The position numbers and the translations under genes were made by a program. Below the pieces are notes generated by a model. It was not told the origin of the DNA. It searched no databases and was given only the letters and a program-made list of their open reading frames with translations. From positions 1-64,000 of the forward strand of contig VGXC01000009.1 in the NCBI GenBank assembly GCA_016873495.1: 64,000 bases of DNA. The letters run 5' to 3'. The stretch is from Nitrospira sp. Lineage in GTDB: Bacteria; Nitrospirota; Nitrospiria; Nitrospirales; Nitrospiraceae. Positions 1,986-51,712 of this stretch are shown in pieces; position 1 is the stretch's first letter; every line of letters begins with the position of its first letter.

Positions 1986-1987
1986 AG

Positions 1988-3487: not shown

Positions 3488-3558
3488 GTTTTCCTCATCT
3501 CAACCTTGCCAAAGCGCATAGGCGCGGGCGGCATCACAAAGCCCGCAGGGAGGGCGTG

Positions 3559-3588: not shown

Positions 3589-3674
3589 GAATTGCCGCAT
3601 TTTGCACTTATAGCGAGAATGTAATTGGCTCACCCTAACCGGTAGGATTATGGGACTCAATAAGTCGCAGCTCG

Positions 3675-28059: not shown

Positions 28060-30023
28060 GCTACCCCCTGATTTTGCCAATCGGTCCCGTATGTCGCGAA
28101 TGTGCTGGCATATCCCGCTGCCGATTGACGTGGCATGGCCTTCTTCGCACGCGAATCAGTCCCCTCCAGCGCCGCATAGACCACGGCTCGGAATCGCGCC
28201 GTTACGCGGCCGTCGAACGCCAATCCGTGACGATGCTGGATGTGTTCGAGGACGGACGGTTCGATAGAGATTCCGTGCCGCATGATCCGATCGGCCGCGG
28301 CATACAACTCCGCCGCCGACCGCGCGACGAGCCCCGCAGCATAGGATGCGTACGGATGTTCGGCCAAACCGGTGGTGTCAAAATACACGACGTGCTTGCC
28401 CGCCATCAGCCCATCGAGTCCGCTGGAAGAGGCTCCGAGGCCGATCACCAGATCCAGTGCCGGCAACAAATCATAGGTACACATGGTTTTTTCCATGACG
28501 ACCTTCTCACCGCCGCGGCTTAACACGTCCCGGAACTCCGGGCTATCCAGTTCATCGCCTTTGGGTTTGAATACGACGACGATATCCGGGTAACGGTGCG
28601 CAAGCGCAACAACCGCCTCGCACCATTCCAGTGCCATGGCGCGATTCATGATGAAGTCTTCGCCGAACGACGTGGTGAAGGCCCCGATCAGTCGTGCTCG
28701 CCGACGAAGCGTCAGGTAGGGCTCCATGATCGTCCCGCTGACTATGCGCTTGTAGGTTTCATCGAGACCGTAAATGCCTGCCCCGATGATGTGCGTGCTT
28801 CTGCAGAAGCGCGCGTTGTGCCTCAACAAATCTCGCTGAAATTCACCCCAGAAGCAAAAATGATGGGCTCCCAGGTAGCTGCTCGCCACGTCATAATACG
28901 TCTCATCACCCTGACTAAATCCAACCGTGACTCCGCCGCGTCGGTCATACACGACGGTGCGCAGCAAATGCGCGAAGGTGGTTTCATCGCGCCCGACGAA
29001 CACGTCTATTTGATGATACAGATCGAGCAGTTCGGCCTTCAGTACCTGGTATGCGACGGTCAAGGCGCTCCACGCGAATCCTCCCCCGCCGCCGCATCGA
29101 ATTTGGTCCACAGCGAGCCGGATGACTCCCCCGAGAAATGTAGGGAGCACACGGCCCGCGAAGTACCCGACAGGGACCGGAAGGCGTTCTGTTTCGACCA
29201 AAGGATAGCCGTTGGTTTGAAAATATCGACGAATGGCTTCGCTGCCGTGCGGGACCACGTGCAAGATTTTTTCCGGGGCCAAGTCCGCTTCGTCATAGAG
29301 AAAGGTCCGGCGGTACGGCCGCCATCGAAGAACCTCGTCGAATATCTGCAGTCCCACGCGCCATCGGCTCGGCGGCCCCGCCGCAAGCACCATTCCCCGC
29401 TTCCACAGGAGTACGCCGACCATCAGCCATGCCACGACGACCTGCCCGAGCGGTTCCAGGCTCGCCTTGATCCTGTTGACGACACGCACAGGCCGTGGGA
29501 TGTAGACGGCTTCGAACGCGGCTCCCAATGGAGTCGGAGCCCACGGTCGCGAATCGATATTGTCTTGCGGAATTAGCAGGATCGCGGCCTGGTTCTGCAA
29601 AAGAGCGCGCAGGAACACCAACAATTTCAGCCGGAGAACCGTGTAGGCATCCTGCGTCTGTCGACGCAGAGCGGCTTCGATGAGGGCATGGTCATGAAAG
29701 CGACGTAAAAAAGCTAGCGCGGGCGCGGCGTGGCTGGTTTTGGCTTCGTCGCAGAAGGCATCGTTGGCTCCCTGACATGCTGTCCGGTGAACCTCGTAGT
29801 ACGATCCCGGAAACTCTTCGTATTGCAACGGCCGCAAACCCGCGAGGAGCTCGACCCATCGTCTCACGCGCTGCGCGCGGAAGGCCTTCGACCACCCCAA
29901 AAAATACCCTCCTCCTTGTCGCCAGGCATACCAGAGCCATAGCGGCAGGGACAGAAGTTCCAATCGTTCCACGATCACCATCGTGCCGCGTTGGTTCAGA
30001 GGACCTGGTGTTTGAGTCGCCAT
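28056..30023 (-). CDS. GT-B-like protein, unrecognised family
   Basis: 655 aa. The N-terminal ~260 residues are rich in aromatic and basic residues with a possible membrane-associated segment (VVVAWLMVGVLLW, about 200-212). The C-terminal ~350 residues look like a GT-B donor domain: IGAFTTSFGEDFIMN, VVVFKPKGDELDSPE and a late block VIGLGASSSGLDGLMAGKHVVYFDTTGLAEHPY that resembles the end of CDP-glycerol/polysaccharide pyruvyl or capsule synthesis transferases. I do not recognise a named family. ATG at 30023 (with CAGG and GGGGG just before) overlaps the upstream gene by 28 bases; ATG 29981 is the alternative. Coupled to carbamoyltransferase 1. Confidence 0.55.
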   Translation of the reverse strand: MATQTPGPLNQRGTMVIVERLELLSLPLWLWYAWRQGGGYFLGWSKAFRAQRVRRWVELLAGLRPLQYEEFPGSYYEVHRTACQGANDAFCDEAKTSHAAPALAFLRRFHDHALIEAALRRQTQDAYTVLRLKLLVFLRALLQNQAAILLIPQDNIDSRPWAPTPLGAAFEAVYIPRPVRVVNRIKASLEPLGQVVVAWLMVGVLLWKRGMVLAAGPPSRWRVGLQIFDEVLRWRPYRRTFLYDEADLAPEKILHVVPHGSEAIRRYFQTNGYPLVETERLPVPVGYFAGRVLPTFLGGVIRLAVDQIRCGGGGGFAWSALTVAYQVLKAELLDLYHQIDVFVGRDETTFAHLLRTVVYDRRGGVTVGFSQGDETYYDVASSYLGAHHFCFWGEFQRDLLRHNARFCRSTHIIGAGIYGLDETYKRIVSGTIMEPYLTLRRRARLIGAFTTSFGEDFIMNRAMALEWCEAVVALAHRYPDIVVVFKPKGDELDSPEFRDVLSRGGEKVVMEKTMCTYDLLPALDLVIGLGASSSGLDGLMAGKHVVYFDTTGLAEHPYASYAAGLVARSAAELYAAADRIMRHGISIEPSVLEHIQHRHGLAFDGRVTARFRAVVYAALEGTDSRAKKAMPRQSAAGYASTFATYGTDWQNQGVA

Positions 30024-31222
30024 TCCCCCGCCTGCTGTTCCCATAAATGAGGAGACCGAAACCGGTCGACGATCTGAAAGAACCGATCTTTCGTCAAACC
30101 GAGATAGTCGAGGATTTCCGCGAAGTATTTCCTGGGAAACTCCCCGTCGAACCGCCGCACCAACGCGACGCCTTCTTCGCGGGTGATATGTCCGTGATGG
30201 ATTTCCTGACAGGCGTCGTACGTGGCCCGGCCCAGCCCGAACTTGACGAAGGCCGTCCAATAGTTGAAACCGTCGATCTTGTCGTCGAGGCTGCTGTACT
30301 TGCTGTAGGTGCCTTCCGACCGCTCCGGGTTGGCCTGGAAGCCCGTGTGTTCGACGGCATAATAGTAGGCCTCCTGGGGAATCCATTTGATGTAGTACCC
30401 CAGAAAATGAAACTCCAGTTTGGCCTCGGCCAAGGCCTTGCCGTCGGCCGGCAGATAGGTCGCGAGATCCGCCATCGAGAGCTTGTGTTCGGCCAGAATG
30501 TGCTCGATCGGCACGCCGCCGAGGTGGAACCGCGTCGCGTCATACCGCAGCCGGAATCCCGGCGCGTCGTCGCTGTCCGTGAAGCCGCTCTGCCGATCCA
30601 CGGGCACACGCTGGCCGTACTGGCCTGGCGATTCACCGTAAAACACCAATTTGATCCCGTGCTTCAAGGCCATCTTCGGCGCAAAGGTCTTTTGCCCGAG
30701 AATGAAGGGCTGGAAGGGATGCAACAGGTTTTCGAAAGCCAGCCGCGTCAACAGGCGATGCACTCGCCCATTCGGCGTGAAGAGGCAATTGTCGAACCCG
30801 CCGACGTGAATCCAGTTCTGGAGATTCTTCCAGCCGATCTCCGTGTAGAGATGCGGCGCCCAGGTGACGGTCAAGGGATTCATCCCGTACTTATATTTGA
30901 GTAGATGGGCCGCCATGCCGCTGTCTTTGCCGCCGCTGCCGGGCACCAGCACATCGTAGCCTCCGTCGCGCCGGCGGTAGCGATCGAGCAACACGAGCAA
31001 TTCTTTTTCCCGTTGTGCCCAGTCAATCTCGCGGTTCACCTTGTCCATTTGACGGCAAGCCAGGCAGATGCCCTCGGCATCGATGGGCAGCGTGTCTTTT
31101 CTCGAGTCCGGTCGATGTTCGTATTCGTTGACTGAGAGCGGTTTCTGGTTGGACAAGACACACCGCCGGCAAAACGTGACCTCGCAGGGGAGCCCCCACT
31201 GTGCCGCGTTTTCACCGGACAT
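29996..31222 (-). CDS. N-acetyl sugar amidotransferase, WbpG/PseA family
   Basis: 408 aa. Two Cys pairs (Cys18-Cys21, Cys53-Cys56) flank an N-terminal metal site. The ATP-pyrophosphatase P-loop PGSGGKDS lies at 94-101. The body continues WAPHLYTEIGWKNLQNW, FTPNGRVHRLLTRLAFEN and LVFYGESPGQYG. In known members (WbpG of Pseudomonas, PseA and PtmG of Campylobacter) the enzyme converts an N-acetyl group to acetamidino using ammonia or glutamine. It therefore suits nonulosonate or diamino-sugar decoration. A HisF-like partner exists at 40076-40945, about 10 kb upstream. ATG at 31222 with CCAGGATC upstream. Confidence 0.87.
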   Translation of the reverse strand: MSGENAAQWGLPCEVTFCRRCVLSNQKPLSVNEYEHRPDSRKDTLPIDAEGICLACRQMDKVNREIDWAQREKELLVLLDRYRRRDGGYDVLVPGSGGKDSGMAAHLLKYKYGMNPLTVTWAPHLYTEIGWKNLQNWIHVGGFDNCLFTPNGRVHRLLTRLAFENLLHPFQPFILGQKTFAPKMALKHGIKLVFYGESPGQYGQRVPVDRQSGFTDSDDAPGFRLRYDATRFHLGGVPIEHILAEHKLSMADLATYLPADGKALAEAKLEFHFLGYYIKWIPQEAYYYAVEHTGFQANPERSEGTYSKYSSLDDKIDGFNYWTAFVKFGLGRATYDACQEIHHGHITREEGVALVRRFDGEFPRKYFAEILDYLGLTKDRFFQIVDRFRSPHLWEQQAGEWRLKHQVL

Positions 31223-31255: not shown

Positions 31256-32254
31256 CTAAAAATGATCGATGTGCCAGAGCGCGACCGACGAGAACCGCCG
31301 GCGGATGGACGGATGAAAGAACCGGACATGTCCGAGTTCATCGGGACCGTCTTCCACGGCATTGCTCAAGCTCATTGACGCCAGCCATCGACGCAGCGAG
31401 GGCACCGGCCGCATTGCCAATGCGAACCGACAGCGGTTCTGTTGCACAGCGAGTTGCATCAAACCCCTGTAGACCTGGTCGTGTTGCGACGGCAACGCGC
31501 CATATTCTTCAATCCGAAACTGATCGCCGACGAGACGCGAAACGGCATAGCCGATCGGGCGCCGCCGCGCATCGGTAAAAACCTCCGCCCGCAATCGATA
31601 GACCCGGCGTTTCCACTCCCACACCCACTCATTCCAATACCGGGGCGTCCGGACCACGTGCAACAAATCTTCCGCGCGATTGAAACGGGCATAGATTCGG
31701 CTGACGGCAGGAAGGTCCGCTTGGTTCATGCGACGATGGAGAACAGGTGCGCCGAGCGTTGCCGGCGTGATGCCGCGGAGCGGGATACGGATCACCCCTC
31801 TCGAGAAAGGACGCCATCCCAACTTTCGGTAGAAGGCGCCGTCCCTGGCATACACCATCGCCAAGTCTCTGCGAGACCGCGGGGCTTGCAAAAAAGACCG
31901 CATCAGCGCGCGCCCGTAGCCCTGACGTTGATGCTCGGGTGCCGTCGCCACGTTGCCGATCCCTTCAAGGCGGTAGACGCGTTCCGAGAGCCTGACCGAA
32001 CGGCTGAAAATTTGATAGGTGCTGACGAGCGTGTCGCCGACAAAGAGTCCGACAAGCCGGCCTGCGCGGTGGTGCGGATCATGGGCGAGGTAATCAGAAA
32101 AATATCCTGCGCGACCGTAACTTCCTCCCCACCGAGCAAGAAATGCACGTCGCAGCAGCGTTTCCCACTCCAACACACGAGAACGAGGAATCGTGAGAAT
32201 CGTCCCGCGCAGACGGTGCCCGCGCAGGAGCCCGGAACTGCCCTTCCCGTCCAT
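31256..32254 (-). CDS. GNAT family N-acetyltransferase
   Basis: 332 aa. The acetyl-CoA loop is in LEGIGNVATAPEHQRQGYGRALMRSFL (about residues 95-121, with QRQGYGRA the R/Q-x-x-G-x-G/A signature), and AFYRKLGWRPFSR follows. The Eis-like two-domain length is visible (a second, less conserved GNAT fold in the C-terminal half). It would acetylate an amino group of an amino sugar, consistent with aminotransferases and deacetylases in the locus. Its ATG overlaps the PhyH stop as TAATG at 32254. Confidence 0.78.
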   Translation of the reverse strand: MDGKGSSGLLRGHRLRGTILTIPRSRVLEWETLLRRAFLARWGGSYGRAGYFSDYLAHDPHHRAGRLVGLFVGDTLVSTYQIFSRSVRLSERVYRLEGIGNVATAPEHQRQGYGRALMRSFLQAPRSRRDLAMVYARDGAFYRKLGWRPFSRGVIRIPLRGITPATLGAPVLHRRMNQADLPAVSRIYARFNRAEDLLHVVRTPRYWNEWVWEWKRRVYRLRAEVFTDARRRPIGYAVSRLVGDQFRIEEYGALPSQHDQVYRGLMQLAVQQNRCRFALAMRPVPSLRRWLASMSLSNAVEDGPDELGHVRFFHPSIRRRFSSVALWHIDHF

Positions 32255-33159
32255 TACGTCGTAGCTCGTCTCGCGCGCAGAAGTTTTTCACGCCAATCGA
32301 TCCTCGGCTTCTGGGCCAAAAAGGCACGAATGTGCTCGAGTCGCTCTTTCATTTTATCCACGGAGTTCGGGGCGAGATCGGCGAACTTCGTGGTCCCGCT
32401 GAAGAGCCCTTGCCCGGCGATGTCGTCATAGCGGACGACGACCGACCATCGGGCATAGAATTGATCCTCGAAATCCGGCGACTGATGGAAAACCAGCCGG
32501 TTGATGGCGATCACATCTCCCTCTGATGCGACGGCGGTGCGCACATTCGGGTATTTGTCCTGCAAGGATTTCGGCACACGCTCCAGGTATATTGCCTCAG
32601 CTTCGTCGACGATTTCCTCATGGCGGACCGGGCCTTCGCGATGCGATCCCACCCAGTAGCGCACAGCCGTCTTTTCCGTAAGGGGATGGAGAGGAATCCA
32701 GAACGTGACACTGTTGACCGAATCTAGCGAATTGATGTCTTGGTGACAATCCTGAAAAAACAATTTCTCCCAGGGTAAAAATATCTGGACTTTGGCCTCC
32801 CGCACGCTGGGCTTGGACATGGAAACGGACCGGGCCAGTTGCCGAAGAGCGGCCGCATTGGCCAACGAGTAGAGCGTCGGCACGCGCTGGGCGTAGGTAT
32901 AGAGAAGATTGCGGGTTTTCGGTTCTCGGCAAACAGCCTCCCAGAGGACTTCCGTGGTCCGTTTGGCGAACGGCTCGCCCGACAAACTCCGTTCCATCTT
33001 TGTCCCGCATGCCTCCTCGACGACACCGGCAAGATCATCGCGAATCGCCCGGATGGCATCGGGGTCGATGACGTTTCTCAGTATTGTGACGCCATCTTCA
33101 CGATAGGCGTCGGCCGCCGTCGCCCATTCTCCCGGCGCCATCGTCTGTCCCGTGGTCAT
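32254..33159 (-). CDS. Phytanoyl-CoA dioxygenase-like (PhyH) Fe/2OG oxygenase
   Basis: 301 aa. The 2-His-1-carboxylate iron site is His139, Asp141 (DCHQDINSLDS) and distal His225 (INRLVFHQSPD). Arg237 is a plausible 2-oxoglutarate ligand. The jelly-roll strand pattern is typical of PhyH. Family members hydroxylate small molecules; some act on nucleoside, sugar or phosphonate intermediates. ATG at 33159 has AAAGGAG at ideal spacing. It is translationally coupled to the GNAT gene, so the two probably act on one product. Confidence 0.85.
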   Translation of the reverse strand: MTTGQTMAPGEWATAADAYREDGVTILRNVIDPDAIRAIRDDLAGVVEEACGTKMERSLSGEPFAKRTTEVLWEAVCREPKTRNLLYTYAQRVPTLYSLANAAALRQLARSVSMSKPSVREAKVQIFLPWEKLFFQDCHQDINSLDSVNSVTFWIPLHPLTEKTAVRYWVGSHREGPVRHEEIVDEAEAIYLERVPKSLQDKYPNVRTAVASEGDVIAINRLVFHQSPDFEDQFYARWSVVVRYDDIAGQGLFSGTTKFADLAPNSVDKMKERLEHIRAFLAQKPRIDWREKLLRARRATT

Positions 33160-33204
33160 GCGACGCTCCTTTATGCTGTGGCAGCCCGTCGAGCCGCGCA
33201 CGAT

Positions 33205-33600
33205 TCAATACGCCGTCAGGACATCCAGCAATTTCCCCCGCTCATCGATCAGGGGAATAAGGAAGATATGTTTTTCCTGAAAGATTCCAGGAGCGCGGCT
33301 CCGCTCCGAATCCGTCAACGCAATAAAATCCATGTTCATCACGCGATGCACGGGCGTGGCCAGCAGCCGACCATCCAGCAGGGACTTGCGGATGTCGCCG
33401 TCGCTGACCGTGCCCACCGCGACACCGTGCGCATTCACGACGACGACGCTTCGATGGTCGTTATTCTCGATCGCCATCATTGCAGCCTGGATGGTATCGG
33501 TGTCACTGACGACGAGTTTCGATAGAGAACTCGCCACCGGCCTTGTCTTGGCCGGTCGCTTGGCCGAGGGTGTTGACGTGCGTCCGCGCGCGCGCTTCAT
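33205..33600 (-). CDS. Stand-alone CBS-pair protein
   Basis: 131 aa. A basic 22-residue tail is followed by two CBS units: DTIQAAMMAIENNDHRSVVVVNAHGVAVGTVSDGDIRKSLLDGR (about 34-77) and a second half ending IPLIDERGKLLDVL. The sequence closely follows the CBS N-terminus of PtmE-type proteins, which in nonulosonate loci continue into a nucleotidyltransferase. Here the frame stops where that domain would begin, and none follows in the next gene. It may bind an adenine nucleotide and regulate a neighbour. ATG at 33600 has AAAAGGGGG upstream. Downstream of neuC. Confidence 0.8.
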   Translation of the reverse strand: MKRARGRTSTPSAKRPAKTRPVASSLSKLVVSDTDTIQAAMMAIENNDHRSVVVVNAHGVAVGTVSDGDIRKSLLDGRLLATPVHRVMNMDFIALTDSERSRAPGIFQEKHIFLIPLIDERGKLLDVLTAY

Positions 33601-33642: not shown

Positions 33643-34791
33643 CTAATAGGTGAGCGATTTCACGAGCAGTCGCTCGTCGATCGCACAGGTGGCCAGAATG
33701 TCCACGATGCGGTCGCTGGCCTTCCCGTCTCCGTACGGATTTTTCATGCCGACGAGCGATTTTTTGAACTCCGGAGACATGGCCCGGCGCAGGGCGCGCA
33801 GGATCTCTCGGCGATCGTGCTCCACGTTGATGACGTTCCGCCCTTGGAGCCGCCCCTGCTGCCGACGGCCGATGTTGACGCAGGGCAATTCGAAGGACGG
33901 CGCTTCCAGCAATCCGCTGGACGAATTCCCCACGATGACGGATGCCACCCGCATCAAGCCGGCGTACAGCCGCCGGGGGACGTTGCGCTCGACGCGGAGC
34001 CAAGGGCCGCGAAACGCGTCAATCTTTTCGCGCACCACCGTGCTGCCCGCATCGTTGTTGGGATAGATGATGACCGTTTGTTCCTTCAATTCCGCCAGCA
34101 CGCTCAACGTCATTTCGATTTGCTCGGCCGCCGACCTGGCCTGCTCCGTGACCGGATGTTGCACCATTAAAATAATCGGCCGATCGAGCGAAAATCGCAG
34201 ATGCTTCGCCACGTCCTTGGCTGACTCATAGTCGGCGCCCAACAGTTCGTCGAGCTGCGGAGCGCCGACATTGTGCACGCGAAAGGCCTCTTCTCCCGAT
34301 CGGCGAAGCCGCTCGACGGCATCGTCGTTGGCGGCAAAATGGATGTGCGCGTACCGCGCGATCGCATGCCGCGTCTGGCCGTCGATATTGCCCGAGACCT
34401 CGCCGGCTTGAATATGCGCCACCGGGATATTGCCGTGCGCGCCGGCAATGGCGGCCATGAGCTGCTCGCCCCGATCCCCCGCCAGCAGAATGATGTCCGG
34501 CTGCACGCGCTCCAGGGTATCCACGAAGGAGGAGAGAAAAATGCCGAGCGACTTGGCCATGGTGGCGTTGGTATAGCCGTCCAAGGCCATGAAGATTTTC
34601 TGATCGACTCGAAAGCCGTCCGCGACGATTTCTCTGAGGCTGGATCCGAATTCGGGCAGCAGGTGCATGTTGGTCGCCACCAACACATAGTCCAAACGAG
34701 GATGCCGGTCGATGCGCGCCAGGACCGGACGGATGTAACCCCACTCGCCGCGCGAACCGGTGACCACCAGAATCTTTCGTGTCGCGCTCAC
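33643..34791 (-). CDS. UDP-GlcNAc 2-epimerase (hydrolysing), NeuC/LegG type
   Basis: 382 aa. The order is VVTGSRGEWGYIRPVL at the N-terminus (about residues 8-23), AHIQAGEVSGNIDGQTRHAI (about 120-140), MVQHPVTEQ and VIVGNSSSGLLEAP (about 290-303), which are the donor and catalytic motifs of hydrolysing 2-epimerases. The reaction releases a ManNAc-type sugar from a UDP- or GDP-linked GlcNAc-type substrate. That sugar feeds the adjacent NeuB-1. GTG at 34791 overlaps the NeuB-1 stop as GTGA. Confidence 0.9.
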   Translation of the reverse strand: MSATRKILVVTGSRGEWGYIRPVLARIDRHPRLDYVLVATNMHLLPEFGSSLREIVADGFRVDQKIFMALDGYTNATMAKSLGIFLSSFVDTLERVQPDIILLAGDRGEQLMAAIAGAHGNIPVAHIQAGEVSGNIDGQTRHAIARYAHIHFAANDDAVERLRRSGEEAFRVHNVGAPQLDELLGADYESAKDVAKHLRFSLDRPIILMVQHPVTEQARSAAEQIEMTLSVLAELKEQTVIIYPNNDAGSTVVREKIDAFRGPWLRVERNVPRRLYAGLMRVASVIVGNSSSGLLEAPSFELPCVNIGRRQQGRLQGRNVINVEHDRREILRALRRAMSPEFKKSLVGMKNPYGDGKASDRIVDILATCAIDERLLVKSLTY

Positions 34792-35819
34792 TGCAAGTCC
34801 TCCCACCGCAGCAACGTGTTGGGCGCGATCCGCTTCCGAGCCGTTTTGCCGATCACGTCGGGGAGACGCTTCGACGGAATGCCCGTGCCGGGCCGCTTGG
34901 TCCATACCATGTCCGGCGTGATCGTCTGCCCGGCCTCGATGGCCGTGAGCGCCACCACGCTGCGGAAGGCCCACTCGCGAATTTGCCCCTCGCGCGAGTG
35001 GACGCGCTTCTCGCTCCCCATCGCTTTCTCGATCTTTCGAATTCCGCAGACCAATTCGTGCAGTTCCGCCATGTCGATGGACACCGACTGATCGGGGCCC
35101 GGCTGGAGCTTGTCGAGAATCACATGCTTCTCGATGATGCAGGCGCCCAACGTCACCGCGGCATAGCAGGTATAGAGGTCCGGCGTGTGGTCGGAATGGC
35201 CGATCGCCAGATCGGGATACCGCGTCTGCATCGTGCGGATCACGCCCAGATTGATGTCTTCGTAGACCGGAGGATATTCGGAGACGCAGTTAAGCAGCGC
35301 GACGGAGGCTCCTTCCTGCCGCAGCGCAGCCGCCGTATCGTCGATTTCCTCCAAGGTGCACATGCCGGTCGACAGGATCATCGGTTTCTTGAATCGCGCG
35401 ATCTTGCGCAACGAGGGGATGTCCGTCATCTCGCCCGATCCGATCTTGAAGGCTGGCACCCCCAGCTCGTTCAACTCCGCCGCCGCCTTGTAACTGAAGG
35501 GCGTGCAGAGATATTGAATCCCGGCGGCTTCGCATGTCCGCATCAGCGCTTCGTGGTCCGCCAATCGCAGCGCATGTTTCTTCAGAAACTCGTAGAGCGG
35601 TTCCTGAAAATTGTCCGACATGGGAATGTCGGGCAGCATTTCTTCATCGGGCAGATGATGTTGGAATTTGATCGCGTCCGCACCCGCCAACTTGGCCGTC
35701 CGCACCATCTCCTTGGCGACGGCCAGATCGCCCAGATGATTGTCGCAGGCCTCGGCCACGATATACACGGGCTGCCCCGGGCCGATCCGGCGTGGTCCGA
35801 TGTGCATCATCGGCGTCAT
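34788..35819 (-). CDS. Nonulosonate synthase NeuB/LegI family (copy 1)
   Basis: 343 aa. TIM-barrel NeuB domain (AEACDNHLGDL 22-32, KFQHHLPDEE 51-60, FKIGSGEMTDIPSL near 127-140, IEKHVILDK near 228) is followed by a C-terminal SAF/antifreeze-like domain (about 285-343, KRPGTGIPSKRLPDVIG). It condenses phosphoenolpyruvate with a 6-carbon amino sugar (from the adjacent NeuC) to a 9-carbon 3-deoxy acid. ATG at 35819, five bases after the carbamoyltransferase 2 stop. The SAF linker residues differ from copy 2. Confidence 0.9.
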   Translation of the reverse strand: MTPMMHIGPRRIGPGQPVYIVAEACDNHLGDLAVAKEMVRTAKLAGADAIKFQHHLPDEEMLPDIPMSDNFQEPLYEFLKKHALRLADHEALMRTCEAAGIQYLCTPFSYKAAAELNELGVPAFKIGSGEMTDIPSLRKIARFKKPMILSTGMCTLEEIDDTAAALRQEGASVALLNCVSEYPPVYEDINLGVIRTMQTRYPDLAIGHSDHTPDLYTCYAAVTLGACIIEKHVILDKLQPGPDQSVSIDMAELHELVCGIRKIEKAMGSEKRVHSREGQIREWAFRSVVALTAIEAGQTITPDMVWTKRPGTGIPSKRLPDVIGKTARKRIAPNTLLRWEDLQ

Positions 35820-35823
35820 CTCG

Positions 35824-37641
35824 TCACGCCGACGGCCCCGATTTGGTGACCAGCCAACGATCCACGATCAGGCCATCGAGCCCGCTCAGGGTGAAGACTC
35901 TGACGGCGTCCGCGGCCGTTTGCACGATCGGCTCGCCGTGCAGATTGAACGAGGTGTTCAGCAGCGCGCCCACGCCAGTTTGGGCTTCGAATGCGGCGAT
36001 AAGATCGTAATAGGAAGGATTCTGCTCCCGCTCGAGGATTTGCGGACGGCAGGTTCCATCGGCCGGATGAATGCCGGCCGCCAGGGCTCGCTTCCCTTCT
36101 TCGCTCGTGGCAAATCCCACGGTCATGTAGGGCGCGCACAGCCTCTTTGGATTCACGAGATAGTCTCCGGCCCGGCTAGCCAGAATCGTCGGGGCAAAGG
36201 GCATCCAGAAGTCCCGGCTCTTGATCTTGTCGTTGATGGTCCGGACCACTTCGGCCTTGCGGGGATCGGCCAGAATGGACCGATTGCCGAGTGCCCGCGC
36301 GCCGAATTCGCTTCCGCCCACGCACCGACCCAGGACATGGCCGGCGGCCAACAAGCTCGCGATGTCTTGTGCCGAGAGATCTTCTTGGACGCGATAGGCC
36401 GGGTTTCCGTGAAACGGTTCGACGGCCCGTTCGGCCTCGGCCCGTTCGCAGGATGGGCCCAGATAGGCATGCGGCAAGGGCTGAAGGACGGTCCGCGGAT
36501 CGATACCGTCCGCCGACAGTCGGTCGTGCATGAACACATAGGCGGCGCCGATGGCCAAAGATTCGTCGGAGGGACAGGGACAGACGAACAAATCCCCCAC
36601 TTCCGACCGTTCGGCGATCCGCATCATGGCCTTGACGTTCATGGCCGCGCCGCCGCCGAAGACCATGTCGCGGGCGCCGGTTTCTTTCAGGCCGTTCACC
36701 GCCCACTGCACCAAGATGTCTTCCGTATAGGCTTGGAGCGCGCCGGCGATTGCATCGAAGCGAAACCCCTCGAGACGGTCTTTGAAATAATAGAACTGGT
36801 CGGTCGGCGTTTCGTGGAACCCAAACTTAAGTCCGTCCACGAATTGCGTATTTCGGAAGACGCGCAAGGGCCCTTGGATATAGTCCGCCTTCGCGTAGGG
36901 CGCCAACCCCATCAGTTTGTACTCGTGTTCGTCCGGCTTCATGCCCAGCATCAAAGTGAGGGAACGATAGAGGCGCGCCACGAGCAGATCGGTGGAGACG
37001 CTGAGTCGGGTAATCCGCCCTCCCTCGGCCAGACTGACCGTGGCGTTGCAGTCCCCTCCCCAGGCGTCGGCGGTCAGAATGAGCGTACGGTCTTTCTTGA
37101 GCGGGCTCCCGTAGTAGGCATGGTAGCCGTGGGCTCGGTGGTGATTGACGAACGTCACTTTGGCCGGATCGATCCCCAAGTGCGACGAGACGGCTTGCCG
37201 GCGGAATTCCTGCCCGACGGCGTCGTGGACTTCGGCCCCCGTTTCATCCAAACCCTTGAGCAGGGCAGCCCAGTCGCCGCCGAACTGCGCGGTGTCCACC
37301 TTGTCGCGAAACACCTCCAGGTAGGCCGGCCTTTTACCTTCACGCAACCGCGGGGACCAAAACTCCCGCTGCTCGCGCAGCCGATCGCCCACGGAGAACC
37401 CCGAATACTTGTGGACCAGCACCGACTTGGCGTCGAATCGAAAGTCGGCAAAGACCACCGCATCCAATTGCTCGGCGCGCAGGCCGGCCATTCGCAGTAC
37501 CGCGTCAATGGCCTGCAAGGGATACCGATCGTCGTTCTTGATGCGCGAGAAGCGCTCTTGGCTCGCGCAGGCCACGATCGCTCCGTCCACCATCGCGGCG
37601 GCTGTCGAATTGGTGCCCCAGTTGATCGCCAAAAGCTTCAT
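35824..37641 (-). CDS. Carbamoyltransferase, NodU/CmcH family (copy 2)
   Basis: 605 aa. Same domain plan as copy 1: MKLLAINWGTNSTAAAM start, NHHRAHGYHAYYG metal motif (about residues 118-130), LTADAWGGDCNATV, then EFGARALGNRSILADP, RDFWMPFAPTIL and LNTSFNLHGEPIV in the C-terminal half. It transfers a carbamoyl group to a sugar hydroxyl. The ATG at 37641 overlaps the stop of the KdnA-like gene as ATGA, so its job is tied to the aminated ulosonate module. Similar to copy 1 but distinct, so the two probably have separate acceptors. Confidence 0.9.
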   Translation of the reverse strand: MKLLAINWGTNSTAAAMVDGAIVACASQERFSRIKNDDRYPLQAIDAVLRMAGLRAEQLDAVVFADFRFDAKSVLVHKYSGFSVGDRLREQREFWSPRLREGKRPAYLEVFRDKVDTAQFGGDWAALLKGLDETGAEVHDAVGQEFRRQAVSSHLGIDPAKVTFVNHHRAHGYHAYYGSPLKKDRTLILTADAWGGDCNATVSLAEGGRITRLSVSTDLLVARLYRSLTLMLGMKPDEHEYKLMGLAPYAKADYIQGPLRVFRNTQFVDGLKFGFHETPTDQFYYFKDRLEGFRFDAIAGALQAYTEDILVQWAVNGLKETGARDMVFGGGAAMNVKAMMRIAERSEVGDLFVCPCPSDESLAIGAAYVFMHDRLSADGIDPRTVLQPLPHAYLGPSCERAEAERAVEPFHGNPAYRVQEDLSAQDIASLLAAGHVLGRCVGGSEFGARALGNRSILADPRKAEVVRTINDKIKSRDFWMPFAPTILASRAGDYLVNPKRLCAPYMTVGFATSEEGKRALAAGIHPADGTCRPQILEREQNPSYYDLIAAFEAQTGVGALLNTSFNLHGEPIVQTAADAVRVFTLSGLDGLIVDRWLVTKSGPSA

Positions 37642-38840
37642 ACGCCACGAGCGGCCTTGATGGACTCCCGAACAGCCTGAGCAATGGACACGATGTTTTC
37701 CTGAGTCATCATCACGTTGACGGGGAGCGCGATGGCCCGCCTCAGCAGCGACGCACAGGCGCAGGAGGGCACGATGCCGTGGCAGGCGCAATTTGCGGCG
37801 GCTCCTGCCTGCCGCGTACCGGCAAAGGCTCCCATCATGTGCCGCCAGGTGCCGGCGAAGTGCCAGTCCAGCGCATCGGGCAGGTTTTTCGTGCCGACGT
37901 TTCTCCGCCCCAATTCTTCGGCCACGGCCAGCGCCTGTTGCTCGGAATCCAGAAAAAAGATCAGTGTGTCCGCGACGTCACCCTGTTCGTCATGCAGAAG
38001 ACGAAACTCCAGGCCGCACCCGTCCAGCCCGCGTTTGAGCGCCGCCTTGTTGGCACGCTGCCGTTCCAGAATCACGGGGAGCTTCTGCAACTGCGCCAGT
38101 CCCACTGCCGCTTGCACCTCGGTCATCCGAAAATTGAACCCGGCTTGTCTCCGCGTATCTTTCCCACGCGGAACGGTCGGATTGTAATCGTGACCATGAT
38201 CATGGAGTGCGCGCGCCCGTTCATACAGGGTCGGATCGTTCGTCACGACGGCGCCGCCCTCGCCCGTCGTAATGTTCTTCGCGAAATCGAAACTGTAGAT
38301 GCCGATGTCGCCGAGCGTGCCGAGCGGTTTCCCCTGATACGACCCGCCGAATCCCTGGGCCGCGTCCTCCAGCACCGCTAGACGATGCTCGCGGGCGATT
38401 CGCAGGATCGCCTCCATGTCGGCTGCGGCGCCGGCCATGTGCACGGGAATGACGGCCTTGGTCTTCGGCGTGATGGCCTTGCGGAAGTACTCGGGGTGCA
38501 GGTTCAAGCTGCGGTCCAGTTCGACGATCACCGGCGTCGCCCCCGCTTCGAGAATCGCTTCGACCGTCGCGACAAAGGTAAACGATTGGGTGATGACCTC
38601 GTCTCCGGGTCCGACGCCGAGCGCGCGGAGGGCGACCAGCAGCGCCGCCGTGCCGGACGAGACCACCTGGGCATGCGCCACACCGACCGTGCGGGCGATC
38701 TCACGCTCGAACTCACGCACCTTGAAGACGCCGTTGCGGCGCGGCCCGAACCCGTGCGCGAAGAGCACGCCGTTGCTGGCATCGAACCACTCGAGAATCG
38801 CCTGGCGCTCTTCCGGACCGATCAATTCGTAGCCGGGCAT
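37638..38840 (-). CDS. KdnA-like PLP aminotransferase
   Basis: 400 aa DegT/DnrJ/EryC1 enzyme. The N-terminus MPGYELIGPEE, then GVLFAHGF (24-31) and KVREFE (40-45), matches what I recall of KdnA (8-amino-3,8-dideoxy-octulosonate transaminase of Shewanella). SSGTAALL (61-68) binds PLP phosphate. LEDAAQ (157-162, Asp159) pairs with the pyridine nitrogen. FDFAKNITTGEGGAV carries the Schiff-base Lys188. Known KdnA aminates an aldehyde generated at C8 of Kdo. The adjacent iron alcohol dehydrogenase would supply that aldehyde. ATG at 38840, 11 bases after the KdnB-like stop. Confidence 0.82.
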   Translation of the reverse strand: MPGYELIGPEERQAILEWFDASNGVLFAHGFGPRRNGVFKVREFEREIARTVGVAHAQVVSSGTAALLVALRALGVGPGDEVITQSFTFVATVEAILEAGATPVIVELDRSLNLHPEYFRKAITPKTKAVIPVHMAGAAADMEAILRIAREHRLAVLEDAAQGFGGSYQGKPLGTLGDIGIYSFDFAKNITTGEGGAVVTNDPTLYERARALHDHGHDYNPTVPRGKDTRRQAGFNFRMTEVQAAVGLAQLQKLPVILERQRANKAALKRGLDGCGLEFRLLHDEQGDVADTLIFFLDSEQQALAVAEELGRRNVGTKNLPDALDWHFAGTWRHMMGAFAGTRQAGAAANCACHGIVPSCACASLLRRAIALPVNVMMTQENIVSIAQAVRESIKAARGV

Positions 38841-38850
38841 ATCGTGCTTC

Positions 38851-40035
38851 CTACGCGCAGGCCGCTCGGACGACCGCCGCGACATCCTCGCGGCCAAAGG
38901 GAACGGGGTTTAGGTCCAGATTGCCTTGCCGCTGCGCGACAGTCAGGTCGGTGAGCCCATCGACCGCCGAAGGGCCGACCTGCCAGCGGCGAAAATTTTT
39001 CGGGGCCTGCACCTGGGCATAGAGCCGCCAAACGGCATCGCGAAATCCCGCCGCGTGCCGGTTCGGCGAAGACAGGCCTGCGGCGTCCACCGGCGCGACC
39101 TTCTCGAACAGCGCGGCATAGCCCCCCGCATAGCCCTTCTCCACATTCGCCGCAATGACAAAGGGCAGCAGGATGCCGCCGGCGTAGCCGTGCGGCACTC
39201 GATAGTGCACGCCCAGGGGATACGAAATGCCGCTCGTCGGTCCACCGGCCGCATGGCCCATCGCGGTTCCGGCCAAAAAACTGGCGAGCAACAGGTCTTG
39301 GCGCGCCTCCAGATCGGCCGGCGCTTCGACGGCCTTGGGTAACGACCGGAAGAGCAACCGAACGGCTTCTGCCCCGAACAAGAGGCTGACGGGATTGGCC
39401 GTCTTGGCTGTGCAAGCTTCGGTGGCATGGACGAGCGCATCGAGCCCGGATCCGATCGTCGCGCCTGCGGGGCAAGTGGTGAGCAATTGCGGGTCCAGCA
39501 CGGCCAAGAAACACCCCACGTGCGTACCGTTGATCCCCAGCTTCGTTTGCGAAGCCACGTCGATGAACGAAGCGGTTGCGCTGACTTCCGAGCCGGACCC
39601 GGCCACCGTCGGGATGACCACGACCGGCACGCCGGGGGTCGGCACCAAATTCATGCCTCGATAGGCGATGCCTCGGCCGGGATTGCGCATGAGGATGCCC
39701 ACGCCCTTGGCCAAATCCATCGTGCTGCCGCCGCCGACGCCAATGATGAGGTCCACCTCAAGAGGTCTGAACGTCGCCGCGACCTGGTCCAAATACTCAT
39801 AGTCCGGCTCGATGCCCGTCCGCGTCGGCATCACGGTGACCGGGGACAAACCTTGCTTGCGCCAACCGGCGAGCATGACCTGAATCGGATCTTGTTGCAG
39901 CACGACTTCGTCCACGATGACGCCGATGCGCGACATCTTGAGTTCCGCCAACTTCGCCGGAAGGGCTTCTGCAGCGCCGGCTCCGCAGACGGCCCGGCAC
40001 TGCAGGCCGATATGAAACACGGCGCCTCCGTTCAT
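38851..40035 (-). CDS. KdnB-like iron-containing alcohol dehydrogenase
   Basis: 394 aa group III dehydrogenase. IIGVGGGSTMDLAKG (97-111) is the NAD motif. IPTVAGSGSEVSATASF (about 154-170) is the conserved family loop. Metal ligands lie in SGLDALVHATEAC (His near residue 207) and GVHYRVPHGYAGGI (two His near 277-283). In the Kdo8N pathway KdnB oxidises Kdo C8 to an aldehyde. Pairing with a KdnA-like enzyme directly downstream supports the same chemistry on a ulosonic acid here. ATG at 40035 with AGAGGAG upstream. The 394-residue length exceeds KdnB (about 360). Confidence 0.78.
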   Translation of the reverse strand: MNGGAVFHIGLQCRAVCGAGAAEALPAKLAELKMSRIGVIVDEVVLQQDPIQVMLAGWRKQGLSPVTVMPTRTGIEPDYEYLDQVAATFRPLEVDLIIGVGGGSTMDLAKGVGILMRNPGRGIAYRGMNLVPTPGVPVVVIPTVAGSGSEVSATASFIDVASQTKLGINGTHVGCFLAVLDPQLLTTCPAGATIGSGLDALVHATEACTAKTANPVSLLFGAEAVRLLFRSLPKAVEAPADLEARQDLLLASFLAGTAMGHAAGGPTSGISYPLGVHYRVPHGYAGGILLPFVIAANVEKGYAGGYAALFEKVAPVDAAGLSSPNRHAAGFRDAVWRLYAQVQAPKNFRRWQVGPSAVDGLTDLTVAQRQGNLDLNPVPFGREDVAAVVRAACA

Positions 40036-40075: not shown

Positions 40076-40945
40076 TTAGGCGCCCGCGGCACAGGTTGAT
40101 GCCGGGCGGCAGCGCACCTGACGCTGCTGGAGAAAGTCCTTGATGGTCGGAAGGGTAGTGTCGGCGATCCGGCCGACGGACCGCGGCCGGCGAAGAAATT
40201 CCGTGTTGCCTTCGACCATGTCCGGCCCCCCCGCTCCCAGTACCTTCGCGACATGATAATGAAGTATCGCTCCCAGACAGACCGCGTCGGCCTGTCCTTC
40301 CGTCAACACCGCATGGACATGATCGAGCGTTCCGGCGCCGCCACAGGCGATGACCGGCACGCTGACGCGACGCGCGATGGCGCTTGTGAGCGACACGTCG
40401 AATCCCCTCCCGGTCCCTTCGCGATCCACCGAGGTGATCAAGAGTTCGCCCGCACCGAGCTCGGCGGCCCGGACAGCCCACTCGACGGCGTCGAGCCCCG
40501 TCGCCTGCCGCCCATTGTCCGTGTAAGCCGCGTAACGTCCGTCAGGCTGCTTGATCGCTTCGATGGACACCACGATCGTCGAGGAGCCGAACCGCGTGGC
40601 CGCCTCCGTAATCAAGGCCGGGCGCTGCACCGCCGCCGTATTCAACGCGACTCGGTCGGCCCCGGCTTGCAACGCGGCCTGAATGTCTTCCAACGACCGC
40701 AACCCTCCGCCTACCGTCAAGGGAATGAAGATTTCGTCGGCGGTCCGCCTCACGATGTCCAACAGACTGTTCCGTTGATACAAGCTCGCCACGATATCCA
40801 TGTACAGCAGCTCGTCGGCGCCCTGCTCGTAGTAGTGGCGGGCGAAGTGCTCCGGACGGCCCAAGGCTCGCAGCCCTTCCAGGTGAATGCCCTTGACGAG
40901 GCTGGGCCCCTTGATATCGAGGCGCGGGATGATGCGAATCGGCAT
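40076..40945 (-). CDS. HisF-like cyclase/amidotransferase partner
   Basis: 289 aa TIM barrel. MPIRIIPRLDIKGPSLVKG, YMDIVASLYQRNSLLDIV, PLTVGGGLRSLEDIQ, VSIEAI, GELLITSVDREGTGRGFD and VIACGGAGTLDHV are HisF/HisA motifs; the closest kin are HisF2-type proteins of O-antigen loci. In Pseudomonas the WbpG-HisF2-HisH2 trio makes acetamidino sugars, with HisH as glutaminase and HisF as ammonia channel. No HisH is present here. The frame to 41263 is rejected because its first ~106 residues lie inside the LIC12162 gene. The C-terminal tail (RPASTCAAGA) is non-conserved. Confidence 0.84.
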   Translation of the reverse strand: MPIRIIPRLDIKGPSLVKGIHLEGLRALGRPEHFARHYYEQGADELLYMDIVASLYQRNSLLDIVRRTADEIFIPLTVGGGLRSLEDIQAALQAGADRVALNTAAVQRPALITEAATRFGSSTIVVSIEAIKQPDGRYAAYTDNGRQATGLDAVEWAVRAAELGAGELLITSVDREGTGRGFDVSLTSAIARRVSVPVIACGGAGTLDHVHAVLTEGQADAVCLGAILHYHVAKVLGAGGPDMVEGNTEFLRRPRSVGRIADTTLPTIKDFLQQRQVRCRPASTCAAGA

Positions 40946-40958
40946 GGCGTCTGCAGGA

Positions 40959-42824: not shown

Positions 42825-44579
42825 TTACCGCCCCAATCTTAATGGCATCATCATTGCCTCTGTATTCGTCTTCGGTTTCGGGGCCACATCGCGCATCACA
42901 TGCCGCAACGATCGGTAGTCTCTATGGATTTGACGGGACTTGAACGGCCACGTCACAAGCTCCCACAAGTGAATGAAGAACACCCGCGTGGGGGCACGGC
43001 GATATTGAGACCATAGGGTCCTGGTCCAAATAGCCAATCCTCGGATCGGATACAACGCCTGTAGCAGCAACGGGTGGTGGGCTACGGTTTGACGATTGAA
43101 GTAGCCGCCCTTTTCGTAGTCGGCTTCCAACTCGCGAACTGTTCCGTTAGGAGGTTGCGAGGCACGGCGGTGTACGGCATGATGCCAGTGCACCGTCGTC
43201 TCAAATAGTAATCTTGTTCTCCAACTTTGCACTGCGAGATACGGATACTCTGTAAAATTGATGAATTTTGTATCATCGCCCGCGTCAATGTCGGAGATTT
43301 CGAGCAAATACGCTTCCTCTTCCTGCAAACTAATCCCGATCATGCCTTTGGCTCTCGCATATTCATAAACGGGAGTGCCCGGCAATGCCTGAATATAATT
43401 GACGCTCAAGTACTTGGCCGGCGGCTCGGGCAAAAACTCCGTGATTCGTTTGACCATCTCTATGGTCTCTTCCAGCGTTCGTCGATTCTCCCCGGGCATG
43501 CCTAGGACCAGTTGATAGATGGTCGAGAGTCCCGTTTCGTGCATCCATCGCGCGGCATTGTCATTGTCTTCGAGGTCGAGCTTCTTCTCCATGACCTCGA
43601 GGATATCGGGACTGCCGGTTTCAAATCCGAAGTACAGGGACACGCACCCGGCGTCTTTCATGCGCCGGAGCAAATCCCGATCCACACTGCATACTCGGAC
43701 CCCTCCGACATGCCACAGTATATCGAGTGGCTTGATGAGGCGGATCAATTCCTCCGTGGCCTTTCGGTCCGATCCAAAGTTTTCATCTCCGAACTGGATG
43801 AAGCCGACGTTATAGCGGTTTTTGAGATAGTTGATCCGTTCGACGACTTTGCCCGGTGGAACTTGACGAAACCCCTTGTCCCACCGATGACAGAATGTGC
43901 AGCGAGCCACGCAGCCTTTCGCCGAGACGACCGTCGCCATCTTCTGGCCTTTGCGATGCGGCTCGTGGCTTCGCGGGTCGGCCGCGAAACTTTCGCGTGC
44001 AAACGGATCGGCAATAAAATTACGAATGTTGGAATGGGTCTCCAGGATGGAGAAATCCGGATCGAGCAATTCATGGGCGGGGATTGCGGCCTCATAGCCG
44101 GTGAAGATCATCTCCCCCTTCGGATCAAGATAGGTGATGCCCTTGATCTTCTCCAACTGAGAAAAGTCATCATGCCCCACATGCTCTCGATAGTAACGGG
44201 CCAGATTAACGATGATTCGTTCGCCCTCTCCGATGACACAGACATCGATGTGGCACAGCCGATGCAAAATCTCCGCGCTCGCCGCCAGATTGCCTCCAAG
44301 AACAAGTTTCGTCGAGGGGAGGACCGCTCTGACTGCCTGGCAAAACTTCTTCACATACCCGTATGCCGTGGACACGACCGCGCTGATGCCGATCACATCA
44401 GGAGCTTCGGCCTGCAATCGGTCCAGGACTTGAGCGAACGATGGCCGTAACCCGTCGATATCCAGAAAGACCGGATCGTATCCCGCCTCCCTCAATGCTT
44501 GAAGTACCGCCAGTGAGCCAAACGGAGGGTAGTCGGTCGGCGTCGGACGAATTGGTGTCGTGCAGATGACGATTTTCAT
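42825..44579 (-). CDS. B12-binding-type radical SAM protein (second)
   Basis: 584 aa. N-terminal Rossmann-like region (about 1-150: PPFGSLAVLQALREAGYDPVFLDIDG, VLGGNLAAS, VCVIGEGE), no DxHxxG ligand motif. The radical SAM core has Cys223, Cys227, Cys230 (KGCVARCTFC), then FIQFGDENFGSD and SLYFGFETGSPDILEVMEKK. The C-terminal region (~500-584) is basic. Substrate unknown. The ATG at 44579 overlaps the NeuA stop (ATGA), so it is co-translated with the CMP-nonulosonate genes, suggesting that a sugar of that module is modified. Confidence 0.85.
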   Translation of the reverse strand: MKIVICTTPIRPTPTDYPPFGSLAVLQALREAGYDPVFLDIDGLRPSFAQVLDRLQAEAPDVIGISAVVSTAYGYVKKFCQAVRAVLPSTKLVLGGNLAASAEILHRLCHIDVCVIGEGERIIVNLARYYREHVGHDDFSQLEKIKGITYLDPKGEMIFTGYEAAIPAHELLDPDFSILETHSNIRNFIADPFARESFAADPRSHEPHRKGQKMATVVSAKGCVARCTFCHRWDKGFRQVPPGKVVERINYLKNRYNVGFIQFGDENFGSDRKATEELIRLIKPLDILWHVGGVRVCSVDRDLLRRMKDAGCVSLYFGFETGSPDILEVMEKKLDLEDNDNAARWMHETGLSTIYQLVLGMPGENRRTLEETIEMVKRITEFLPEPPAKYLSVNYIQALPGTPVYEYARAKGMIGISLQEEEAYLLEISDIDAGDDTKFINFTEYPYLAVQSWRTRLLFETTVHWHHAVHRRASQPPNGTVRELEADYEKGGYFNRQTVAHHPLLLQALYPIRGLAIWTRTLWSQYRRAPTRVFFIHLWELVTWPFKSRQIHRDYRSLRHVMRDVAPKPKTNTEAMMMPLRLGR

Positions 44580-45196
44580 GGCGAGTGCCGTTTCATCAGC
44601 ACCTGTTCGGCCAGCCAGAAGTCGAACTCGTCGTCGATCTCGACGTTCTGTTCGCGGTCGAGTTCCATCCGTTCAATGTGTGTCCCGTAGCGATCACCTT
44701 GGCGCAGCAACTCCGCCTTCACCACGTAGATATTGCCGTCGTCGTAGAAGAAGCCGGGAATGTCCTGACGGCGCAACTCGTTCCTCCCGTACTCGGTGAA
44801 CTTGCAGACGAAGCCCGTGGCCAGCGAATCGGCCCGAGTCTCGAGAAAACGGGCGATGCACCGGTCGATCAAATCAGCATCCCGAATCGGCGAGGTGGCT
44901 TGCAGGAGCACGACGACATCGGCCGGAATGTGCGTGAGGACTTGCTGCAAGACGCTGAGGGTCGTGGCTTCATCCGTCGCCAGGTCCTTGGGGCGATCGA
45001 GCACCTCGGCGCCGTAGCGGCGCGCCATGGCCGCAATTTCGGCATCTTCCGTCGAGACGACGAACCGATCCAGCAATTTTGACGACTTGGCGGATTCGAT
45101 CGTCCAGGCGATCAGCGGCTTGCCGTGCATCTCCCGCAAGTTTTTCCTTGGAATCCCCTTGCTGCCGCCCCGCGCCGGAGTGATGCCGAGGATCAT
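44576..45196 (-). CDS. CMP-nonulosonate cytidylyltransferase NeuA/PtmB type
   Basis: 206 aa. The N-terminus ITPARGGSKGIPRKNLREM (5-23) is the CTP-binding signature of acylneuraminate cytidylyltransferases. VVSTEDAEIAAMARRYGAEV and VVLLQATSPIRDADLIDRC follow. No C-terminal SGNH or phosphatase domain is attached. It activates a 9-carbon 3-deoxy acid as CMP-sugar, presumably the product of NeuB-2 or NeuB-1. ATG at 45196, seven bases after the deacetylase stop. Partner of the NeuB-2/PseG-like/LmbE module. Confidence 0.9.
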   Translation of the reverse strand: MILGITPARGGSKGIPRKNLREMHGKPLIAWTIESAKSSKLLDRFVVSTEDAEIAAMARRYGAEVLDRPKDLATDEATTLSVLQQVLTHIPADVVVLLQATSPIRDADLIDRCIARFLETRADSLATGFVCKFTEYGRNELRRQDIPGFFYDDGNIYVVKAELLRQGDRYGTHIERMELDREQNVEIDDEFDFWLAEQVLMKRHSP

Positions 45197-45202
45197 GGCC
45201 GG

Positions 45203-45868
45203 TCATGCCCACTGATCGCGAATGACGGCAAAGGCCTCGGCGGCGGAGAATCCGATTTCCATGCCGCGCTTCCAGGCCGTCACTTCGAGGCCCTTCGCGG
45301 ACCGCGGATGCGGGAAGGCGCGCAACTCGCGGCTGTAGGCTTGCAGCGCCTCGATCTTCTTGGCCAGGAACCCGTCGATATTGACATAATGATTCGGCTG
45401 GAAGGCATACTCCGGAAAGGGCGGCGCCTGATCGGTGGAGGACGGCACTTCGTAACTCAGCAGCCTCGGGACCTTGTGCGACGCGATCACGCGACAGGCG
45501 ACCATCGATGCCTGAAAGACCGCGCGATGGTCCTGATTGGAATCGCCTCGGTGATGGGTATAGACCAGGTCAGGTTTCAGCGAGAGCACGCAGGCTTCGA
45601 GCGGGACGATGATGTCGAGGAGGCGCTCGTCCAGCAATTCGTCGCGCAGATCGAGAAACCGCAGATCCTGATAACCCAAAATCTCCGCCGCGCGGCGCGC
45701 CGCCGACTTTTCTTCTTCCACCACCCGCGGATCGAACTGGTGATTGTAGGCCCGCTTGCAGACGATGCAGGCCGTCACCTGATCGCCCGCCGCCACGTGC
45801 TTGGCGATGGTCCCGCCGACCCCCAGCACTTCGTCATCCATATGTGCGGAGATGACCAGAACCTTCAT
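45203..45868 (-). CDS. LmbE/PIG-L family deacetylase
   Basis: 221 aa. ISAHMDDEVLGVGG (6-19, AHxDDE zinc motif) and HHRGDSNQDHRAV near residue 108 supply the zinc and base residues of the PIG-L fold. The family removes N-acetyl groups from GlcNAc-type sugars and related mycothiol-like compounds. In the nonulosonate module it would unmask an amino group for other acyl or amidino groups. ATG at 45868 overlaps the PseG-like stop (ATGA). Confidence 0.85.
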   Translation of the reverse strand: MKVLVISAHMDDEVLGVGGTIAKHVAAGDQVTACIVCKRAYNHQFDPRVVEEEKSAARRAAEILGYQDLRFLDLRDELLDERLLDIIVPLEACVLSLKPDLVYTHHRGDSNQDHRAVFQASMVACRVIASHKVPRLLSYEVPSSTDQAPPFPEYAFQPNHYVNIDGFLAKKIEALQAYSRELRAFPHPRSAKGLEVTAWKRGMEIGFSAAEAFAVIRDQWA

Positions 45869-47897: not shown

Positions 47898-47904
47898 CCC
47901 ACGG

Positions 47905-48624: not shown

Positions 48625-48655
48625 GGAAGAACCGGCTCGGGCTCCCGAAGGGCGC

Positions 48656-49714: not shown

Positions 49715-49721
49715 GGGAGGC

Positions 49722-50669: not shown

Positions 50670-50690
50670 GGTTGCTTCTGTCCTTTCTGC

Positions 50691-51677: not shown

Positions 51678-51712
51678 TGTCCTCCCTTCCGTTCTCGCCC
51701 CCGTCACACCGC

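Follow-up and report, generated by a model that had tools for sequence, protein, structure and literature searches.

The gene cluster at positions 33643–40035 of the Nitrospira sp. stretch analyzed here (64,000 nucleotides, hereafter the window) probably specifies the synthesis of an amino-nonulosonic acid, whose likeliest identity is 9-amino-9-deoxy-N-acetylneuraminic acid. The window is part of a 91-kb contig of genome G000, whose completeness is 99.97%. All five genes of the cluster lie on the minus strand, as a sequence-only reading of the window had placed them. They encode an iron-family alcohol dehydrogenase (Fe-ADH, 38851–40035; PF25137/PF00465 in the Pfam/NCBIfam search), a DegT-type pyridoxal 5′-phosphate (PLP) aminotransferase of the KdnA family (37638–38840, with its ATG at 38840, upstream of which the mechanical open reading frame begins at 38897), a NodU-type O-carbamoyltransferase located between KdnA and NeuB (35824–37641; PF16861/PF02543), the sialic-acid-type synthase NeuB1 (34788–35819; PF03102 and SAF), and a NeuC of the hydrolyzing UDP-N-acetylglucosamine (UDP-GlcNAc) 2-epimerase type (33643–34791). 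The tight joins described in that reading are present as ATGA between KdnA and the carbamoyltransferase and as GTGA between NeuB and NeuC, whereas the gap between Fe-ADH and KdnA is 10 bases rather than 11. The carbamoyltransferase and NeuB are separated by 4 bases.

In Shewanella, KdnB and KdnA act on the terminal primary alcohol of 3-deoxy-D-manno-octulosonic acid (Kdo), and the route runs from Kdo through 8-oxo-Kdo and 8-amino-Kdo (Kdo8N) to CMP-Kdo8N. The pathway of N-acetylneuraminic acid (Neu5Ac) consists of NeuC, NeuB, and NeuA. By analogy with these two routes, NeuC would hydrolyze and epimerize UDP-GlcNAc to N-acetylmannosamine (ManNAc), and NeuB1 would condense ManNAc with phosphoenolpyruvate to Neu5Ac. 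Fe-ADH would act on free Neu5Ac, oxidizing its primary alcohol at C9 to an aldehyde that the KdnA-family aminotransferase would convert to 9-amino-9-deoxy-Neu5Ac. The CMP-nonulosonate synthetase at 44576–45196 (minus strand; PseF-like, 125 bits), the likely partner for the aminated sugar, would then form the CMP derivative for transfer to a surface glycan. In the window, the product may also be O-carbamoylated by the enzyme at 35824–37641 and amidinated by WbuX and WbuZ. We infer the enzymatic steps, their order, and the aminated position (C9 or C8) from the characterized Kdo8N route and the NeuC/NeuB pathway, while gene content, operon conservation, family membership, trees, and the absence of KdsA from two archaeal-phylum genomes are read directly from the sequences.

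The arrangement resembles the Kdo8N pathway of Shewanella oneidensis (KdnB, KdnA, and the Kdo8N-type KdsB) in that a KdnA-family enzyme stands beside an enzyme of the Fe-ADH superfamily, with a CMP-sugar synthetase nearby. The proposed oxidation and transamination of the terminal alcohol of an ulosonic acid are also shared, here on an acid one carbon longer. Neu-type NeuC and NeuB and a CMP-sugar synthetase are held in common with the bacterial Neu5Ac pathway, but the window adds a dehydrogenase and KdnA, which are proposed to work ahead of activation.

The assignment of the aminotransferase as KdnA-like is borne out by structure matches and trees. Its top match among all solved structures is Shewanella KdnA (5k8b; 298 bits, 44% identity), and the runner-up, a perosamine synthetase, scores 187 bits. 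The N-termini of the two proteins align from residue 1 (MPGYELIGPEE in the window and MPGFELFGPEE in KdnA). The PLP lysine, K188, lies in an invariant column of the alignment, and D159 and further PLP-site columns are invariant too. In a tree built from 80 loci of the genome-collection scan, same-phylum relatives, E. coli WecE and ArnB, and LegC-like proteins, the window aminotransferase falls inside the KdnA family, which is split off at 100/99. A second tree, for which the sampling was pruned and three loci were added, repeats this split at 100/100. The enzyme stands away from WecE, ArnB, and the LegC-like proteins, and on these trees its identity as a nucleoside diphosphate (NDP)-4-keto-sugar aminotransferase is rejected. 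The placement that the sequence-only reading had named as refuting it was thus not observed.

Within the family, the window aminotransferase belongs to a nonulosonate-linked branch of 13 members (100/100), distinct from the clade that holds Shewanella. The branch carries the loop pattern K[NI]LP[DESG]A..WH at the place where the Shewanella-type clade has FYWYxNNWHY. In the window, this candidate substrate loop reads KNLPDALDWH (residues 318–327; 37860–37889, minus strand), and the motif is identical or nearly so in the loci L149–L151, L158, and L159. Pro321 is found in 11 of 11 branch sequences of the alignment, versus Trp or Tyr in 44 of 44 of the Shewanella-type clade. The window enzyme does not carry the Kdo8N-type loop of the Shewanella-type subfamily, and by its sequence it is a member of the KdnA family outside the Kdo8N subfamily. 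Relative to the proteins aligned with it, its C-terminal stretch GTRQAGAAANCACHGIVPSCACA (window 37750–37840) is extended and rich in cysteine, a candidate divergence.

The same genes recur together in other phyla, in uncultured bacteria and in two archaea. A contiguous Fe-ADH–KdnA–CMAS–NeuB–NeuC string (CMAS, CMP-sugar synthetase) was found in Methanolobus psychrotolerans (L020), in two Omnitrophota-phylum genomes (L149 and L150), and in another Methanolobus-phylum genome (L151), and the Omnitrophota contig L018 holds Fe-ADH–KdnA–NeuB–NeuC. The identities of Fe-ADH, KdnA, NeuB, and NeuC to those of the window are 57, 63, 67, and 66% in L018 and 47, 57, 61, and 60% in L020. After NeuC, the window string continues with a stand-alone CBS-domain protein (33205–33600, minus strand; PF00571), and a CBS gene also follows NeuC in L020 (11498–11833, 44% identity) and in L134. 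The carbamoyltransferase is a window-specific insertion that the core operons of L018, L020, and L149–L151 do not contain, and HisF–HisH–WbuX lie behind the core in L149 and L150. The target of amidination and carbamoylation may be the product itself or a different sugar in its glycan. Since the synthetase at 44576–45196 is 63–68% identical to the one right behind KdnA in L149–L151, it is tied to the pathway despite its distance. The corresponding synthetase genes occupy 8538–9326 in L020 and 6039–6671 in L149.

Of the 13 nonulosonate-branch loci, 10 have NeuB or NeuC within 10 kb, a distance at which neither gene accompanies any of the 76 KdnA loci outside the branch (Fisher p = 6e-11, an indicative value as the loci are phylogenetically related and not independent). 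The corresponding counts for a NeuA/PseF-type synthetase within 5 kb are 8/13 and 0/76, and KdsB is within 5 kb in 1/13 branch loci. The linkage thus differs from that of the Shewanella loci, where KdnA, KdnB, and KdsB stand together. Because the core is contiguous in other phyla and its linkage is confined to this branch, the association of the Fe-ADH/KdnA pair with NeuB/NeuC is not chance, and the pair belongs functionally with NeuB and NeuC, as had been supposed from the window alone. Among 175 genomes of the window's family that were scanned, a branch KdnA is carried only by the window's genome and by one of the same genus; three further, weaker matches are Shewanella-type KdnA or unplaced. 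This patchy spread points to horizontal transfer. Several contigs from metagenome-assembled genomes are short (6.3 kb for L018), and the sampled searches may miss further copies. The 8.8-kb contig of L010 contains no Fe-ADH; at 627–3873, its branch KdnA is accompanied by a PhyH-type dioxygenase and a DAO-type FAD oxidoreductase.

The alcohol-oxidizing partner of KdnA varies among these loci. In L158, from the family holding Arenibacter, NeuB, NeuC, KdnA, CMAS, and a GMC oxidoreductase form one string; its NeuB is 64% identical to Neisseria meningitidis NeuB (1xuu), and its KdnA has a near-identical branch motif. These genes also occur in the alphaproteobacterial locus L069, whose GMC enzyme is its own, at 30% identity. 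In L159, a KdnB-type Fe-ADH accompanies a branch-type KdnA and NeuB. A constant KdnA with a swapped alcohol-oxidizing enzyme is what a two-step oxidation and transamination predicts. The L158 operon is the most telling evidence for Neu5Ac as the probable substrate. We see about an even chance that these loci represent a dedicated, horizontally spread 9-amino-9-deoxy-sialic acid pathway in Bacteria and Archaea, which arose from a Kdo8N oxidation–transamination pair retargeted to Neu5Ac and recruited at least two unrelated types of alcohol-oxidizing enzymes (Fe-ADH in two clades and GMC) beside one KdnA branch.

The window dehydrogenase had been called KdnB-like, and as a statement of orthology this does not hold. 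KdnB (5k8c) appears far down its list of solved structures, with 87 bits versus 156 bits for a methanol dehydrogenase. In the trees, the dehydrogenase belongs to a nonulosonate-linked Fe-ADH clade (7 rows at 98/95, and 10 rows at 100/98 in the later tree), while the KdnB group including Shewanella forms another clade (100/99 and 100/100). These separate clades and the 87-bit match exclude KdnB orthology. In the C-terminal metal-site stretch SGISYPLGVHYRVPH (39190–39234, minus strand), Ser268 replaces the metal-ligand His of the superfamily, and the KdnB metal-site motif xHAxSYGL is not matched. His282 and, nearer the N-terminus, Asp199 and His203 are retained as metal ligands. In the alignment of Fe-ADH groups, the metal-ligand His is gone in 10 of 10 members of the clade and kept in KdnB, FucO, YiaY, YqhD, and the Desulfobacterota homologues. 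Window-type loci differ from the Shewanella type in the dehydrogenase clade and its metal site as well as in the KdnA loop. The chemistry may be like that of KdnB, which has been classed as FeADH3 (cd08184) (PMC5125639), with a different lineage. Separately, in L022–L054, L019, and L021, a Desulfobacterota-type KdnA is paired with an Fe-ADH nearer FucO than KdnB, often beside KdsB, and this Fe-ADH is a second dehydrogenase lineage, for probable Kdo8N synthesis.

The substrate can be narrowed by the distribution of Kdo synthesis. KdsA (Kdo-8-phosphate synthase, TIGR01362) is present in 13 of 13 bacterial genomes searched, including Shewanella, with the gene of G579 split across contig ends and thus under the cut-off there. 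The same search found no KdsA in the archaeal-phylum genomes G396 and G745, so Kdo is not the substrate there. Of the two substrates offered by the sequence-only reading, a NeuB-made nine-carbon acid agrees better with this distribution, and a Kdo-like acid is less fitting since the operon also occurs in archaea that lack KdsA.

The NeuB and NeuC sequences seem to point to Neu5Ac among the nine-carbon acids. NeuB1 aligns with N. meningitidis NeuB and groups with it at 96/94 (weaker, at 92/83 and 92/92, under other sampling), apart from the LegB-linked NeuBs. NeuC scores 396 bits (cut-off 236) on TIGR03568, a model that may fail to separate NeuC from LegG; in the tree, it forms a clade with those of L018, L020, and L134 (100/99), apart from the LegB-linked NeuCs (100/100). 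With the legionaminic acid pathway (LegB, LegC, LegH, LegG, LegI, and LegF), the window shares NeuB/NeuC homologues and amidination genes, and LegC-type and NeuD-type genes occur in its relatives L011/L128 and L012/L127. However, the profile search found no LegB or LegC at the curated cut-off in G000, G396, G640, or G745, the best scores in G000 being 162 bits for LegB (cut-off 475) and 260 bits for LegC (cut-off 420). Together with the positions of NeuB1 and NeuC outside the LegB-linked groups, this led us to reject legionaminic acid in the window. The second base module of G000, L134, consists of CMAS–NeuB–NeuC–CBS and lacks Fe-ADH, KdnA, and Leg genes. We consider that the substrate is most likely Neu5Ac.

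Several observations weigh against a 9-amino-Neu5Ac pathway. NeuB1 is only 38% identical to the meningococcal NeuB and scores 326.6 bits on TIGR03569, whose curated cut-off is 399.65; it appears to be a divergent Neu-type member, and its specificity is not certain. The metal ligand is lost throughout the Fe-ADH clade, and its catalytic competence is unproven. The window's own synthetase lies ~5 kb from the Fe-ADH/KdnA pair, and no NeuB is found near the two basal loci of the 13-row KdnA branch, L019 and L021. In L011/L128 and L012/L127, the pair is accompanied by LegC-type, NeuD-type, and Leg-type NeuB/NeuC genes, so that one would normally expect a methyl group at C9, and C8 is a possible site there.

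This last point favors amination of the nonulosonate at C8, with the secondary alcohol oxidized to a ketone and then aminated, which we regard as unlikely though worth weighing. Ketones are the usual substrates of DegT enzymes. The resulting 8-amino sugars would resemble that of Flexibacter (Tenacibaculum) maritimus, in which 8-amino-3,5,7,8,9-pentadeoxynonulosonic acid is already known as an O-antigen component (PMC3210612). That sugar, compared here by product, also bears a side-chain amine on a nonulosonic acid, but at C8 and on a 9-deoxy sugar. In the window, L018, L020, L069, and L158, the Neu-type NeuB leads us to expect a free primary alcohol at C9 instead. The characterized KdnB/KdnA pair works on a terminal primary alcohol, and the swap partner of Fe-ADH is a GMC oxidoreductase, a type of enzyme that typically oxidizes primary alcohols. 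The genomes of L011/L128 and L012/L127, G248 and G312, contain no LegB above the cut-off, so that the 6-deoxy route and the product are uncertain even there.

Amination at C9 could also be reached if the pair acted ahead of NeuB, at position C6 of either UDP-GlcNAc or ManNAc, and NeuB condensed 6-amino-ManNAc. The gene set and the product would be the same, but the characterized precedent uses the free ulosonic acid, and the adjacency of KdnA and CMAS in L020, L011, L012, L149–L151, and L158 suggests amination just ahead of activation, in the manner of the Shewanella KdnA/KdnB/KdsB loci; we consider the earlier action very improbable. We see still less chance that the pair makes Shewanella-type Kdo8N and is merely located among nonulosonate genes. 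The aminotransferase does belong to the KdnA family, and G000 makes Kdo (KdsA at G000:C18 and a KdsB-like gene in the window at 20654–21415). On the other hand, the operon is kept in the two archaeal-phylum genomes without KdsA, its linkage is with NeuB, NeuC, and CMAS and only once with KdsB, and both the KdnA loop and the dehydrogenase clade depart from the Shewanella type. Plain Kdo8N was set aside as the principal explanation on the grounds of gene linkage and the missing KdsA. A role of both enzymes in making an unrelated NDP-sugar of the same glycan would suit the several other sugar pathways in the window and related loci, but the trees part the aminotransferase from WecE, ArnB, and LegC-like proteins, and the minimal operons L158 and L069 hold, as sugar genes in that string, only NeuB, NeuC, KdnA, CMAS, and the GMC oxidoreductase. 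We find this equally hard to credit.

The amidination genes flank the cluster on the minus strand. A HisF/WbuZ-like protein for acetamidino modification is encoded at 40076–40946 (start approximate; TIGR03572, 263 bits), and the N-acetyl sugar amidotransferase WbuX at 29996–31222 (TIGR03573, 332 bits, above the cut-off). No HisH partner of WbuX/HisF was detected by tblastn in the window or the remaining contig. A PhyH gene is located at 32254–33201.

Upstream, at 44576–52085 and in the same direction, lie genes for CMAS, a PIG-L deacetylase, a PseG-like protein, NeuB2, a WbqC-like protein, a radical SAM protein, an SDR, and an aminotransferase. The NeuB tree separates NeuB2 (46860–47987, minus strand; NCBIfam) from NeuB1. 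For NeuB2, the gene set suggests a pathway of its own: together with its companions (PseG-like, 45865–46863; PIG-L, 45203–45895; SDR, 49722–50669; aminotransferase, 50691–52085) it probably represents a second nonulosonate pathway. With eight NeuB homologues, the 3.2-Mb genome G000 looks to have a large nonulosonate repertoire. A B12-binding radical SAM protein is encoded at 42825–44579, and a 43%-identical relative lies near the KdnA/NeuB locus L159 (18357–20000).

In the portion of the open-access literature covered by our search, 9-amino-sialic acids appeared in no papers other than those on synthetic sialic-acid reagents, which is not proof for the wider literature, and no description of their biosynthesis was found in that portion. 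The window represents a distinct KdnA branch that has another dehydrogenase and, by all indications, a nine-carbon substrate, and that would work like the KdnB/KdnA pair. If true, the product would be a natural amino-sialic acid, which would explain how microbes give a positive charge to a surface sugar that is otherwise acidic. The combination of NeuB, NeuC, KdnA with the KNLPDA loop, a CMP-sugar synthetase, and a dehydrogenase would serve as a gene signature for finding such glycans, and the enzymes would be a possible source of 9-amino-sialic acids for use as chemical handles. The range of the KdnA reaction would then include nine-carbon sugars in addition to Kdo, and also archaea.

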